From a filamentous cyanobacterium ESFC-1 (lineage in GTDB: Bacteria > Cyanobacteriota > Cyanobacteriia > Cyanobacteriales > Spirulinaceae), in NCBI GenBank assembly GCA_000380225.1, contig KB904821.1, forward strand, positions 3,331,631 through 3,395,630: a stretch of 64,000 nt of DNA, given 5' to 3'. The translations under genes and the position numbers were made by a program. Under the pieces are notes generated by a model that saw nothing but the letters and a program-made list of their open reading frames with translations, had not been told where the DNA came from and made no database searches. Below are positions 23,890-29,520 of the stretch, in pieces (the stretch's first letter is position 1; the number at the start of each line of letters is the position of its first letter).

Positions 23890-25107
23890 TCATAACCACT
23901 TTTTCGACAATTTCAAAGCCCGTTGATAAGTCAAATTCAACCAAGCGCGATCGCCCAATGTTAAAGTAATATCCGGTTTAGTCGGATTTGCACCCATCGC
24001 AGCAATAATTTGTTGACCCAATGCTTGCGCTAAACGGGGGGGAACCGCATTTCCCACCTGTCGAAAACCGTGCCATTTTGTTGCGTGACAGCGAAACCAA
24101 TCGGGAAAAGAGTGCAACCGGGCCGCTTCTCTAACCGAAATTGTGCGAGGATAGGAAGGATGAACCGGACGCGGGGAAGTGTGACTGCCGCGATCGCGAT
24201 TCGTTCCTGCTCGTAAAGTGTGGCATTGTCCGTCCCAGTTTAAACGCCGCAAACGACTGGTAGAATCGAGTTGGTTGGGTTTAAGCTGGCTAAACCGTTG
24301 AATAATCCTATCGCTGTGTTGAGTTTGCCAAGAACTGGTCAGTAAATGCGGATTCCAGACTCGCGGATAAGCTAAATCTGCACCGACCAAGCCCCGCAAT
24401 TGTCGCACATAAAGACTCGCATTGGCTTCTAGACGCTCGATTCTATCGGGTTTGAGGTACACCTCGTCTCCGGTCGCTAAGTCTGGGAAATCGTCAATAT
24501 TGGGCAAGTCCGCGATCGCGTCTCGTACCGTAATCCGTGTAGTATTAGGCTGCGGATACAGCGCCAAATTTTCCCCATTGCGGCTTCCTAAAATAAACAA
24601 CCGCTTGCGATTCTGCGGTACACCAAAATCGGCTGCATTCAGCACTTGTACCGGTTCTGTAATACGATAACCTGCGGCCTTAAATTCTCGCTTCAACCGT
24701 CGCAGCAGCGTCTTATTTTGACCTTGCTTCAGTCCCGGTACATTTTCCATCAGGAAATAGCGGGGTTGTAACTCCCTCACCCAGCGACAAAACGCAAAAA
24801 TCAACTCATTGCGATTGTCCTTGAGGTCGTGTTTCCCCATCACCGAAAAGCCCTGACAAGGTGGCCCCCCAATAATCAAATCCAGAGAAGACGGTAAAAA
24901 TTTTTGTATCTCCTGGCTGGACAACTGTGCTACATCCCCACAAATTACCGGAGTCTTCGGGAAATTATAACGGTGTATCGCTGCGTGTACCGGGTCGCTT
25001 TCGACGGCTAACACCACATCAAACCCCGCTTGTTCCATTCCGAGGGAGAATCCCCCCGCACCCGCAAACAAGTCAATCGCAATGGGTCTGTCAAAAGAAG
25101 AAGTCAT
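23890..25107 (-). CDS. DNA (cytosine-5) methyltransferase, solitary
   Basis: 405 aa from the ATG at 25107 (MTSSFDRPIAIDLF); the frame is open further upstream but that stretch does not look like coding sequence. C5-methyltransferase motifs in order: I DLFAGAGGFSLGMEQAGF, IV with catalytic Cys GGPPCQGFSVMGKHD, VI FLMENVPGL, VIII region QNRKRLFILGSR, IX RTISVREAARLHSFPDWF and X QVGNAVPPRLAQALGQQI. No restriction endonuclease gene adjoins. In Synechocystis a related solitary enzyme methylates CGATCG, the HIP1 core. That specificity is only a possibility here. Confidence 0.92.
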   Translation of the reverse strand: MTSSFDRPIAIDLFAGAGGFSLGMEQAGFDVVLAVESDPVHAAIHRYNFPKTPVICGDVAQLSSQEIQKFLPSSLDLIIGGPPCQGFSVMGKHDLKDNRNELIFAFCRWVRELQPRYFLMENVPGLKQGQNKTLLRRLKREFKAAGYRITEPVQVLNAADFGVPQNRKRLFILGSRNGENLALYPQPNTTRITVRDAIADLPNIDDFPDLATGDEVYLKPDRIERLEANASLYVRQLRGLVGADLAYPRVWNPHLLTSSWQTQHSDRIIQRFSQLKPNQLDSTSRLRRLNWDGQCHTLRAGTNRDRGSHTSPRPVHPSYPRTISVREAARLHSFPDWFRCHATKWHGFRQVGNAVPPRLAQALGQQIIAAMGANPTKPDITLTLGDRAWLNLTYQRALKLSKKWL

Positions 25108-25363: not shown

Positions 25364-25567
<204 letters not shown>

Positions 25568-25577
25568 GAAAAACTTT

Positions 25578-25723
25578 GCCGCACCCCAACATTAAAAGCT
25601 TACATACTACCGTCTACGAAACGGAAGGTTGTGGGTTCGAGTCCCGCCATCGTCACTTTTTTTAGACGATGTAGCTCAAACGGATAGAGCATTTTATGAA
25701 ATGGCTTTTTCAACTTGTGCGGC
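25578..25723 (+). ncRNA. Y-RNA-like element A with circularly permuted tRNA-like module
   Basis: Closing stem GCCGCAC (25578-25584) / GTGCGGC (25717-25723), then conserved CCCAAC and ACTT in the internal loop, then inner stem AAAAGC (25594-25599) / GCTTTT (25704-25709), then TTACATAC. Inside, tRNA parts come in permuted order: anticodon-arm-like hairpin CCGT-CTACGAA-ACGG (25610-25624; loop as in tRNA-Arg ACG), T arm GTGGG-TTCGAGT-CCCGC (25631-25647), acceptor 3' strand CATCGTC (25648-25654), 10-nt loop, acceptor 5' strand GACGATG (25665-25671), then TA and D arm GCTC...GAGC (25674-25690). Bacterial YrlA-type Y RNAs are known tRNA mimics of this kind. Confidence 0.75.
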
Positions 25724-25744
25724 TCTTATTTTTCTATTTAGTCT

Positions 25745-25809
25745 AGAACCCCGGTTTCTTTTGGGTTTATTTACTTAAGTTATAGTTTTTACTCAGAAAC
25801 CGGGGTTCT
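25745..25809. repeat. AGAACCCCGGTTTCT hairpin element, copy 2
   Basis: Perfect 15-bp arms AGAACCCCGGTTTCT (25745-25759) and AGAAACCGGGGTTCT (25795-25809) with a 35-nt AT-rich spacer. Lies between RNA elements A and B. A degraded piece of the GGCTCTGCTTTCATT repeat follows at 25830-25880. Confidence 0.85.
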
Positions 25810-25922
25810 GAACCCTAACTCTTTAACCTCGTAACTTGGCTCAAGTCCCGTTACAAAAAAGAAGGCTCTGCTTTCATTCCAATCCCAAAAACTAAACCCA
25901 ATCTTCCTCCTACAAAGCTACA

Positions 25923-26056
25923 ATTCGCGTCCCAACTGACAAAGCTTACACGCATTTAGAGCAACTTGGTAGCTCGTTTGATTTAGCATCAAAAGGTTAC
26001 AGGTTCAAATCCTGTAATGTGTACCACAAACTACAGCTTTCTCGACTTACGCGAAT
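25923..26056 (+). ncRNA. Y-RNA-like element B enclosing a complete linear tRNA-like module
   Basis: Closing stem ATTCGCGT (25923-25930) / ACGCGAAT (26049-26056), internal loop CCCAACTGAC / CTCGACTT, inner stem AAAGCT (25941-25946) / AGCTTT (26035-26040), then TTACA. In contrast to elements A and C the enclosed tRNA is in normal order (25950-26026) with an intact acceptor stem and CCA. The outer stem therefore brackets both tRNA ends. Confidence 0.75.
25950..26026 (+). other. Linear tRNA-like sequence, apparent anticodon UAG, encoded CCA
   Basis: Acceptor ACGCATT / AATGTGT (7 bp with one G-U), TA at positions 8-9, D arm GAGC-AACTTGGTA-GCTC, G26, anticodon arm TTTGA-TTTAGCA-TCAAA, 5-nt variable loop, T arm ACAGG-TTCAAAT-CCTGT, then A-CCA. 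UAG would read Leu CUA, but tRNA-Leu should have a long variable arm, and the base after the anticodon is C where a purine is expected. More likely a mimic or an odd tRNA than a normal decoding tRNA. Confidence 0.55.
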
Positions 26057-26102
26057 CTTTATTTCAAAACCATGACCTGTCTCAACTCACAATAACAAAA
26101 TT

Positions 26103-26249
26103 ACCGCGCCCCAACCCGCAAAGCTTACACACATTAAGTTTACCCATCATCGTAGGTTCGAGTCCTACTAGCTGCGCCTTTTATGCAGCTATAGCTAAGG
26201 GGTTAAAGCAATGGGATTGTGATTTTTTAGCTTTACTTACTTGTGCGGT
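26103..26249 (+). ncRNA. Y-RNA-like element C with circularly permuted tRNA-like module
   Basis: Closing stem ACCGCGC (26103-26109) / GTGCGGT (26243-26249), loop CCCAACCCGC / ACTTACTT, inner stem AAAGCT (26120-26125) / AGCTTT (26229-26234), then TTACACAC. Permuted tRNA order: anticodon-stem 3' strand CCCAT (26143-26147), T arm GTAGG-TTCGAGT-CCTAC (26152-26168), acceptor 3' strand TAGCTGC (26169-26175), 9-nt loop, acceptor 5' strand GCAGCTA (26185-26191), TA, D arm GCT...AGC (26194-26209), A, and anticodon-stem 5' strand ATGGG (26211-26215) pairing CCCAT. The RNA ends thus leave through the anticodon position. Confidence 0.75.
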
Positions 26250-26359: not shown

Positions 26360-26480
26360 TTCGCGCCCCAACTGTGAAAGCCTACATACTAGCCTAATGG
26401 TAAAGGCACTTGACTCATAATCAAGCGAATACGGGTTCAACTCCTGTGTGTGACACAACAGCTTTCCAAACTTGCGCGAA
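26360..26480 (+). ncRNA. Y-RNA-like element D with linear tRNA-like module, anticodon CAU
   Basis: Closing stem TTCGCGC (26360-26366) / GCGCGAA (26474-26480), loop CCCAACTGTG / CCAAACTT, inner stem AAAGC (26377-26381) / GCTTT (26461-26465), then CTACATAC. Linear tRNA-like 26383-26454: D arm GCCT-AATGGTAA-AGGC, anticodon arm CTTGA-CTCATAA-TCAAG (CAU), T arm ACGGG-TTCAACT-CCTGT. The acceptor (TACATAC / GTGTGAC) pairs only over five positions and no CCA follows, so it is degenerate as a tRNA. The conserved TACATAC motif doubles as its acceptor strand. Confidence 0.7.
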
Positions 26481-26515
26481 TCCCTCTTTTAAATTTTAGT
26501 TTTCCCAATACATTT

Positions 26516-27232
26516 GTGAGCGAACATCGATTAGACAAAATCATTATCGAACGCCCTCGCTATGGCTCTCGTGATAAAGCCAAAAAAGTGCAAGGCTATC
26601 GTAAACGACTTGATAAAATCACCCAAGAAGCACAAGAAGATGGCTTTTTACAACCCTACTTATTCAAACCTCGAAAAACTCGCCACTTATCCGATAATCT
26701 TGCGCCTTTATATCGCTGGTTGCGTTCCAAAGTCGGGCAACCCTGGGACGATGTTTACAGCCAACTCTGCCAACAACTAGATACTAAATCTACCATTGGA
26801 CAGCACGTTCTAGAGCATCTTTGGCAAACCGTCGAGCGTCATGTCGAAATCAGAAATAATCAAATTTATGCCAAACATAAACCCAACTATCCCTTAACCT
26901 CTGGTCAAACTCATCCCAAATTTTACGTTCATCCCGAAACTGGAATATTTTGTATAGCACCCCGCAAGCAAAAATCCGAAACTCAACCCCAAGATGACGT
27001 AGTAATTGTTAATCGCTATCAACAATATCGCCGGATTGATAATATTTGGTATTTCGTTTCTTTTCGAGATGTGAAATACTCCCCCAAAAATACAGAGCGA
27101 GACCTTCTTGCCAACCGTATTCTTGACCCTTGGGAAGCCCGTAAACTCTACGGCAAACCCATTTCCGCGTACCACAAAAGACACGCCACCAAAAAAGAAA
27201 TTAAATCTCTCAAAAAACAACAGAAATGCTAA
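26516..27232 (+). CDS. Basic conserved protein of the Ro60 locus
   Basis: 238 aa from the GTG at 26516 (VSEHRLDKIIIERPRYGS). A start at 26450 would place 22 codons inside RNA element D, so I reject it. Arg/Lys/His-rich, no TM, no signal peptide. Recognisable blocks are ERPRYGSRDKAKKVQGYRK, LSDNLAPLYRWLRSKVGQPW, DDVYSQLCQQLDTKSTIGQH and a C-terminal DPWEARKLYGKPISAYHKRH with a Lys-rich end. I recall similar uncharacterised proteins with a GRPWDKVYSEI-type block beside TROVE genes in planctomycetes, but cannot check this. Probably RNA- or ribosome-binding, by charge and context only. Confidence 0.7.
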   Translation: MSEHRLDKIIIERPRYGSRDKAKKVQGYRKRLDKITQEAQEDGFLQPYLFKPRKTRHLSDNLAPLYRWLRSKVGQPWDDVYSQLCQQLDTKSTIGQHVLEHLWQTVERHVEIRNNQIYAKHKPNYPLTSGQTHPKFYVHPETGIFCIAPRKQKSETQPQDDVVIVNRYQQYRRIDNIWYFVSFRDVKYSPKNTERDLLANRILDPWEARKLYGKPISAYHKRHATKKEIKSLKKQQKC

Positions 27233-27309: not shown

Positions 27310-27675
27310 ATGAGCGCAAAAGTATTGTCGATTATCGAACAAATGAAAACCTTAACGCTGTGGGAAGCCACCGAATTAATTCATCAAATCGAAGATACTT
27401 TCGGTGTGAGCGCCTCCCCGGTGCATCAACAAATCAAAAATCACTTGATTGAAACCCCCAATCTTTACGATGTTATTTTAGAAGCCGTTCCCAAAAGTAA
27501 GAAAAGCGCTATTATCAAAATCGTTTGGAACTTCGCCGGAGAAGGGTTAAATCATGCCCGTAAACTGGTCGAATCTGCACCCGTTTTGATTAAAAAAGAT
27601 GTCGAATACCGACGCGCTTTCGCCTTCAAACAGCAACTGGAACGTTTAGGCGCAACAGTTACTTTACACCCGTAA
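27310..27675 (+). CDS. Stand-alone ribosomal protein L7/L12-like protein
   Basis: 121 aa, the size of bL12. Residues 1-40 resemble the dimerising N-terminal domain (LSIIEQMKTLTLWEATELIH, FGVSASP), the hinge is short, and residues 55-121 match the C-terminal fold (YDVILEAVPKSKKSAIIKIV, GLNHARKLVESAPVLIKKDV, LERLGATVTLH). The true rplL normally sits in the rplKAJL cluster; here it lies between a Ro60-locus gene and RNA elements, so this is a paralogue. bL12 recruits translational GTPases to ribosomes. A similar contact role in an RNA surveillance complex is an inference. Start is supported by GGGGAGGTGAAACC. Confidence 0.75.
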   Translation: MSAKVLSIIEQMKTLTLWEATELIHQIEDTFGVSASPVHQQIKNHLIETPNLYDVILEAVPKSKKSAIIKIVWNFAGEGLNHARKLVESAPVLIKKDVEYRRAFAFKQQLERLGATVTLHP

Positions 27676-27763: not shown

Positions 27764-27881
27764 GCCGCACCCCCATGCACGGGACTTACATACCTTCGAC
27801 CAAAACTACGGTACGCTTACGAAGAAAGCGTTGCAAGCCTGAGACCCATAGCAGGCATACAGTCCCGCCGACTTGTGCGGC
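27764..27881 (+). ncRNA. Y-RNA-like element E, no tRNA module
   Basis: Closing stem GCCGCAC (27764-27770) / GTGCGGC (27875-27881), identical to element A. Internal loop CCCCATGCA / CCGACTT, inner stem CGGGACT (27780-27786) / AGTCCCG (27861-27867), then TTACATAC. The interior has hairpins such as GCCTG...CAGGC (27837-27856) but no T loop or acceptor stem. It shares the scaffold with A-D but carries another apical domain. Confidence 0.65.
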
Positions 27882-27922: not shown

Positions 27923-27993
27923 GCCGCGCCCCCACCCAGAGGGCATACATACACCTGTAACGTGTTTCCCAACGCCCCCTAAACTTGCGCGGC
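27923..27993 (+). ncRNA. Y-RNA-like element F, minimal form
   Basis: Shortest element, 71 nt. Closing stem GCCGCGC (27923-27929) / GCGCGGC (27987-27993), CCCCAC on the 5' side and AACTT on the 3' side of the internal loop, inner GGGC (27941-27944) / GCCC (27974-27977), the ATACATAC motif, and a small apical hairpin ACAC-CTGTAAC-GTGT (27951-27965). No tRNA-like part. It ends 75 bp before the Ro60 start codon. Confidence 0.6.

Positions 27994-28005: not shown

Positions 28006-29520
<1,515 letters not shown>

Follow-up and report, generated by a model that had tools for sequence, protein, structure and literature searches.

Y RNAs bearing permuted tRNA, canonical tRNA and, in relatives, 23S rRNA modules at a divergent cyanobacterial Ro60 locus: possible baits for proteins that recognise the translation machinery

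What Y RNAs do is an old question. tRNA-like Y RNAs were reportedly described in many bacteria by Chen et al. in 2014 (RNA 20:1715), and the structure of a YrlA domain was reportedly solved by Wang et al. in 2018. According to PMC8394870 and PMC7790460, the basal stem of YrlA binds Rsr, while DusA, TruB and PNPase recognise the tRNA-like domain; the latter report had already proposed this domain as a competitive inhibitor of an anticodon nuclease. In some jumbo phages, a Ro protein is described as an RNA-repair platform with a tRNA-like partner (PMC7824862). We analysed 64,000 nucleotides of the filamentous cyanobacterium ESFC-1 (GCA_000380225.1, contig KB904821.1, positions 3,331,631 to 3,395,630; this whole stretch is called the window) and found six elements, A to F, on the plus strand upstream of a divergent Ro60 gene. 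Comparison of their sequences gives good support to their identity as Ro60-associated Y RNAs.

The scaffold common to all six elements is made of a 5'/3' stem, in which a CCC bulge is conserved, an inner stem, and a strand resembling TACATAC that bears the module. The CCC-bulge stem is presumably the part gripped by Ro60. When the modules were removed from 43 scaffolds, the outer 7-bp helix was paired in every cell of the alignment and both helices covaried, with 134 doubly changed cells versus 46.5 ± 5.8 in shuffles; the finder that chose these rows asks for the outer stem, so that the percentage paired, but not the base identities, is partly built in.

Element A (25578–25723; found from the sequence, Rfam, the scaffold finder, covariation and ARAGORN) carries a permuted tRNA with an intact anticodon arm. 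The anticodon arm CCGT-CTACGAA-ACGG (25610–25624) is followed by the T arm GTGGG-TTCGAGT-CCCGC (25631–25647), the 3' acceptor strand CATCGTC (25648–25654), a loop, the 5' acceptor strand GACGATG (25665–25671), TA (25672–25673) and the D arm GCTC...GAGC (25674–25690). The acceptor hairpin as a whole (25648–25671), read from the sequence and seen in covariation, is closed by a 10-nt loop. Element C (26103–26249; sequence, finder and covariation) has the same order of T arm, 3' acceptor strand, 5' acceptor strand and D arm, and is entered at the anticodon loop. Its T arm GTAGG-TTCGAGT-CCTAC (26152–26168) leads to the 3' acceptor strand TAGCTGC (26169–26175), a loop, the 5' acceptor strand GCAGCTA (26185–26191), TA (26192–26193) and a D arm that starts at 26194, and the two halves of the split anticodon stem, CCCAT (26143–26147) and ATGGG (26211–26215), pair again. 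The initial annotation had described A and C as circularly permuted tRNAs with perfect acceptor stems, TTCGAGT T loops and TA at tRNA positions 8–9; the stems (7/7 bp in both), the loops and the TA can be read directly, and the arms are all located. It had placed the break of C in the anticodon loop and that of A between the D arm and the anticodon arm, in agreement with the split stem of C and the intact arm of A.

Compensatory changes in relatives bear on the same folds. In 22 rows of the A type, the acceptor stem was paired in every row, with changes on both sides at 6/7 pairs; 19 rows of the C type showed changes on both sides at 6/7 acceptor pairs and at 4/4 pairs of the split anticodon stem. 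For the A-type, C-type and canonical-order alignments, each covariation measure was reached by at most 1/500 shuffles. The rows of all three alignments were a hand-picked part of their classes, a choice that favours paired rows, and the A-type and C-type rows were picked by a descriptor requiring pairing in these stems, so that the percentage paired is partly built in. Failure of the two half-sequences to covary had been named in advance as evidence against such folds, and covariation was found instead. The suggested kinship with YrlA also held. The Rfam YrlA model matched A at 38.7 bits (E 2.4e-6), below the gathering score of 69 bits; relatives scored 32–38 bits, and at E ≤ 10 the YrlA matches did not include B, C, D, E or F. 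The view that a readable Arg anticodon arm makes A novel was not supported in that form: intact arms recur in relatives and their anticodon loops vary (CTGCTAA, CTCATAA, CTGATAA, CTACGTA, ATACGAA and others), Arg not being conserved. De-permuted A was no nearer to the Arg(ACG) tRNA than to other tRNAs of its genome; the four best among 72 tRNAs were Arg(TCT) 0.79, Lys(TTT) 0.78, Lys(TTT) 0.78 and Asp(GTC) 0.86 over 65 positions. The initial annotation also left out B, which lies within the span it covered, D, and the 23S rRNA pieces of relatives described below.

Element B (25924–26055) sits between A and C, and element D (26360–26480) after C; in both, the scaffold surrounds a tRNA in canonical order, and the outer stems are common to all elements. 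The tRNA of B (25950–26026) was called Leu TAG by ARAGORN and scored 62.6 bits in Rfam, and that of D (26383–26456) was called Met CAT and scored 51.2 bits, both over the Rfam tRNA cut-off of 29 bits. These calls, together with the precedent of an inducible tRNA array in Anabaena (PMC10272220), would suit the explanation that B and D, like their relatives, are additional tRNA genes of the ordinary kind that serve translation in stress, and that the scaffold is a mere leader and trailer. We regard this as very improbable. The acceptor stem of this type is about 5 bp, compared with 7 bp in a free tRNA, and is built from the scaffold, whose CATAC strand doubles as the 5' acceptor strand in a 26-row alignment. 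In the same alignment the tRNA covaried strongly, and the outer scaffold helix covaried in the same molecules. Neither the permuted modules nor the rRNA modules of this scaffold, moreover, can be tRNAs. We also considered whether B and D are recent copies of tRNAs of this genome and rejected it, because their best identity (0.75) is below the median non-self identity (0.81), which likewise speaks against extra tRNA genes.

Element E (27764–27881; covariance model and alignment) combines the scaffold with a pseudoknot-like module, and element F (27923–27993; covariance model), a Y RNA of the minimal type, immediately precedes Ro60. Elements of the minimal type lie at a median of 106 nt before Ro60. 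The module of E and its 15 relatives contains the conserved series GGTGCGTAC...GTACGCTGCAAGCC...AGCAGGC, in which a CTCC/GGAG pseudoknot is possible by eye. An rRNA origin of this module was tried and dropped, as 0/16 matched own-genome 16S or 23S rRNA.

To follow the scaffold through related cyanobacteria, we used a script trained on the 43 module-free scaffolds, in place of the covariance model R1, which was lossy on the whole genome: it missed D of its own genome, though D scored 54 bits in the window. At E ≤ 1, R1 gave 149 and 150 matches on 62 and 54 sources, the longest modules not among them. The script found 418 scaffolds in 107/116 sequence sources, and none in reversed controls (score 26). 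At least one scaffold was present in 104/112 sources bearing Ro60, and all 411 scaffolds in Ro60 sources lie on the strand of Ro60 (384 upstream and 27 downstream). An exact core pattern occurred in 11/386 genomes, 10 of which have Ro60, versus 29/386 overall.

The script sorted the 418 inserts into canonical-order tRNA (135), permuted tRNA (82), minimal (73), sarcin-ricin loop with GTPase-associated centre (SRL-GAC, 30), helix 69 (H69, 27), other (25), E-type (16), half tRNA (15) and T arm only (15). Shuffled inserts fitted the permuted descriptor in 5/4640 cases and the canonical one in 1/4640. When permuted inserts were doubled, ARAGORN reported a tRNA across the junction in 50/82, compared with 0/82 linear elements and 0/820 shuffled doubled inserts; two of the 82 have no descriptor coordinates and owe their place in the class to ARAGORN. 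The 80 with coordinates comprise 27 with a split anticodon stem, like C, 18 with an intact anticodon arm, like A, and 13 ambiguous ones, part of which have intact anticodon arms and which include A through a chance 5-bp match; the remaining 5 and 17 carry no call of break type. In three elements (L104:6341, L117:8517 and L190:12960), the break seems by eye to fall within the D loop. The graft sites on the tRNA include the acceptor end, the anticodon loop, the D/anticodon junction and the D loop. By eye, other hairpins take the place of the T loop of the tRNA module at L120:6060, L132:9968, L134:12462, L158:6630, L160:7765, L168:11915, L173:6709, L174:11434 and L181:6265, and one scaffold (L113:5045) has an insert unlike any class.

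The rRNA modules of relatives copy two regions of 23S rRNA, namely the sarcin-ricin loop with the GTPase-associated centre, and helix 69–71. Inserts matched own-genome 23S rRNA in 29/30 SRL-GAC and 27/27 H69 elements, the latter at 1897/1905–1929, while a reversed rRNA control gave weak matches in 2/27 H69, at most 2/30 SRL-GAC and 1/73 minimal elements. The GAC helices outside the defining motif showed compensatory changes (24/30 elements aligned). Circular permutation of an rRNA domain was considered for the H69 module and rejected, as 3' tails matched the expected place in only 3/27.

The ESFC-1 genome has such a module as well. Its chromosomal tRNA array of 5.4 kb (C1:1561667–1567069, L031) contains two Y scaffolds, one with the sarcin-ricin loop and GTPase-associated centre and the other with half a tRNA; the first was called as a large-subunit rRNA fragment by Rfam at 57.9 bits, a call made without any motif chosen by us. 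The array also holds genes for a PARG-type macrodomain and NADAR, which are ADP-ribose enzymes, and for MNT and HepT. The SRL pattern was not found in the contigs listed as viral. An SRL-GAC query against plasmids and phages mostly matched by the GAC part alone, which is probably ordinary 23S sequence, and one of 522 records covered most of it, the Dolichospermum flos-aquae plasmid pAfl69 (NZ_CP051207.1). This plasmid has pieces of Ro60 at both record ends; no feature is listed at its SRL-GAC Y RNA, and its gene table lists no RNA genes. Dolichospermum flos-aquae CCAP 1403/13F is one strain that has the locus.

The variety of modules could also have arisen neutrally, if a recombining scaffold collected stable RNA pieces or if the tRNA pieces were scars of integrase attachment. 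Degenerate modules (half tRNA, T arm only) and the insertions in some of them would fit this. However, compensatory changes preserve the module helices, all scaffolds in Ro60 sources share the strand of Ro60, and neither SRL nor GAC is known as a site of integrase action. We consider neutral capture quite unlikely.

The gene that follows E and F (28069–29520, plus strand) encodes 483 residues with a helical-repeat ring and a vWA domain. An AlphaFold2 model built from 42 relatives had a predicted local distance difference test score (pLDDT) of 84.3 and a predicted template modelling score of 0.76. In Foldseek, the 13 best matches were all Ro60/Rsr and extended over the whole length; VIA gave Z 22.1 over 432 residues to 9nfa and 19.8 over 440 to Rsr of D. 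radiodurans. Identity to Ro60/Rsr structures is 15–17%. Pfam and NCBIfam do not name the gene product, TROVE was not listed, and vWA_Ro60 matched weakly in 3/42 members. On the modelled fold, which decides here rather than sequence models, the protein is a diverged Ro60. Relatives occur in 29/386 genomes of the phylum and 136/388 of the order, two sets that overlap.

The modules copy parts of the translation machinery, namely tRNAs (normal or permuted), SRL with GAC, and helix 69–71. We propose that these Y RNAs are baits, held by Ro60, for proteins that recognise parts of tRNA or the ribosome, and we give this proposal an even chance. In its favour we count the covariation of scaffold and modules, the genetic link to Ro60, the repair genes in Ro60 sources, the ADP-ribose enzymes of the tRNA array, the two contigs listed as viral that carry Ro60 with Y scaffolds, and the inhibitor role already suggested for YrlA. 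The modules have one theme, namely surfaces in contact with tRNA, with translation factors and with the toxins directed at them. Ro60 would grip the stem and display the module; proteins that bind tRNA or ribosome parts, first of all toxins that cleave or modify RNA and possibly RNA enzymes of the host, would take the bait and spare the real target, or, as an alternative outcome, the bound proteins would be drawn to the Ro60 particle. The graft site would set the exposed face, in that canonical grafts would leave the anticodon exposed and conceal the acceptor end, and grafts at the anticodon loop would do the opposite. The repair genes nearby would restore RNA that is cleaved nonetheless.

Several points weigh against the bait proposal. 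Bait function is read from sequences, and any toxin for these sites in these genomes is hypothetical. According to PMC7790460, no YrlA fragments could be detected upon action of the Salmonella nuclease, which fits an inhibitor and not a sacrificial decoy. Not every Y RNA can be a bait, as 73/418 elements have no module and 16 have an E-type module. Short rRNA motifs served to define both the SRL-GAC and the H69 class, so that conservation of the motif is built in. No fixed promoter or -10 box was found in the 418 upstream flanks. Finally, the Y RNA cluster of the window includes a gene for an L7/L12-like paralogue of the ribosomal stalk protein (27310–27675, plus strand; Pfam PF00542 3.5e-17 and PF16320 2.2e-9), with relatives in 26/112 Ro60 sources, and we rejected it as a partner of the GAC mimic, as SRL-GAC elements accompany it in 8/26 sources versus 19/86 of the others (p 0.43).

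The main rival, which does not exclude the bait proposal and is compatible with it, is that the Y RNAs are adaptors as in Deinococcus: modules would tether effectors such as PNPase, and each kind of module would bring its own RNA-processing enzyme to misfolded RNA. The Rsr–Y RNA–PNPase assembly and the modification of YrlA by DusA and TruB (PMC8394870 and PMC7790460) favour it, the same anatomy is present here, and repair enzymes are encoded nearby. Nevertheless, an adaptor role alone leaves the SRL-GAC and H69 modules and the multiple tRNA graft sites unexplained, and we hold it possible but rather unlikely. A regulatory sensor would work differently, with damage to or occupation of the module altering Ro60 binding and sending a signal to the operon, much as RtcR responds to damaged tRNA. 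Control of a Salmonella operon by tRNA fragments (PMC7790460) offers a precedent, whereas no regulator gene was identified here, and we see very little probability in a sensor.

Several gene families accompany the Y RNAs. Directly before A, a 66-residue protein with a C-terminal glycine is encoded (25367–25567, plus strand; tblastn and alignment). Relatives were found by tblastn in 85/112 Ro60 sources, and the last Gly was invariant in a 17-row alignment. The protein had no Pfam or NCBIfam match and, in a profile search of PDB, no match below E 0.17 and none to ubiquitin; it is possibly a ubiquitin-like modifier. A conserved protein within the Y RNA cluster (26450–27232, plus strand; identified through relatives), with its start probably near 26516 by homologues, has relatives in 41/112 Ro60 sources, always on the strand of Ro60; it had no family in Pfam or NCBIfam, no PDB fold match at E ≤ 0.001, and a model pLDDT of 69.6. 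The other neighbours in the 112 sources include a 300-residue family (59), ThiF-like proteins (56), a 144-residue family (40) and GNAT (38), and the repair genes KptA/Tpt1 (18) and DRB0094 RNA ligase (9). The best E value of the 300-residue partner in a profile search of PDB was 0.17, with no E2 match. An open reading frame on the minus strand of the window (23890–25107) resembles a C5 DNA methyltransferase by eye.

Ro60 relatives also occur on three contigs whose viral status is their listing in IMG/VR: L223 (390 kb), L224 (469 kb) and L225 (122 kb). All three have the 66-residue protein, and L224 and L225 have the 300-residue and ThiF proteins; a JAB-like protein was seen in L224 only, as a weak match below the cut-off. 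Of the four scaffolds of L223, one holds a canonical tRNA, and the single scaffold of L225 holds, by eye, an A-type permuted tRNA; the script found no scaffold in L224. It is conceivable, though doubtful, that the cassette tags proteins baited by RNA: Ro60 would display mimics of tRNAs and of the factor-binding centre of the ribosome, and a toxin or viral protein bound to a mimic would receive the putative ubiquitin-like modifier, with the E1-like enzyme and the 300-residue partner as its route, and so be disabled, and the versions of large viruses would protect translation from host nucleases.

Y RNAs that mimic tRNA were already known. As far as our searches reach, the rRNA modules, the several graft positions, the tRNA modules in canonical order and the association with an E1-like cassette appear to be new. 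No earlier rRNA-mimicking Y RNA was met in titles and abstract openings of the open literature; subscription papers lie outside this, so that prior reports are possible. The locus family is a natural catalogue of one scaffold with many modules, and since most modules copy parts attacked by tRNA- or ribosome-cutting toxins and touched by translation factors, the bait proposal can be tested by module swaps. Some "tRNA genes" annotated beside Ro60 may be domains of Y RNAs, and current protein and RNA family models appear to miss the whole locus.

Compared with YrlA (RF02553), the elements are alike in the basal stem for Ro60, the T, D and acceptor arms, the loop-closed acceptor and, for the C type, the entry at the anticodon. 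The permuted order of T, acceptor and D arms is present in A and C, and the adjacency to the Ro60 gene is also present; in contrast to YrlA, a locus has many copies, tRNAs are grafted in additional topologies, 23S rRNA modules occur and the scaffold sequence is another. The protein resembles Rsr of Deinococcus and vertebrate Ro60 in its fold over the whole length and differs from them in its low identity and in being missed by the Pfam TROVE and NCBIfam models. The genome shares with other cyanobacteria a long tRNA array like the trn operon of Anabaena, here with Y scaffolds inside; the Ro60 cluster, however, stands apart from it, and PMC10272220 describes tRNA genes, the terms "Y RNA" and "Ro60" being absent from that paper. 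The small protein with a C-terminal Gly, the ThiF E1-like protein in 56/112 sources and the JAB-like protein of L224 recall the bacterial ubiquitin-like (Ubl) operons with Ubl, JAB, E1 and E2 (type 6d of PMC1779556). Unlike those operons, in whose description the term "TROVE" does not occur, the genes here are linked to Ro60 and Y RNAs, and their 300-residue partner is without an E2 match.
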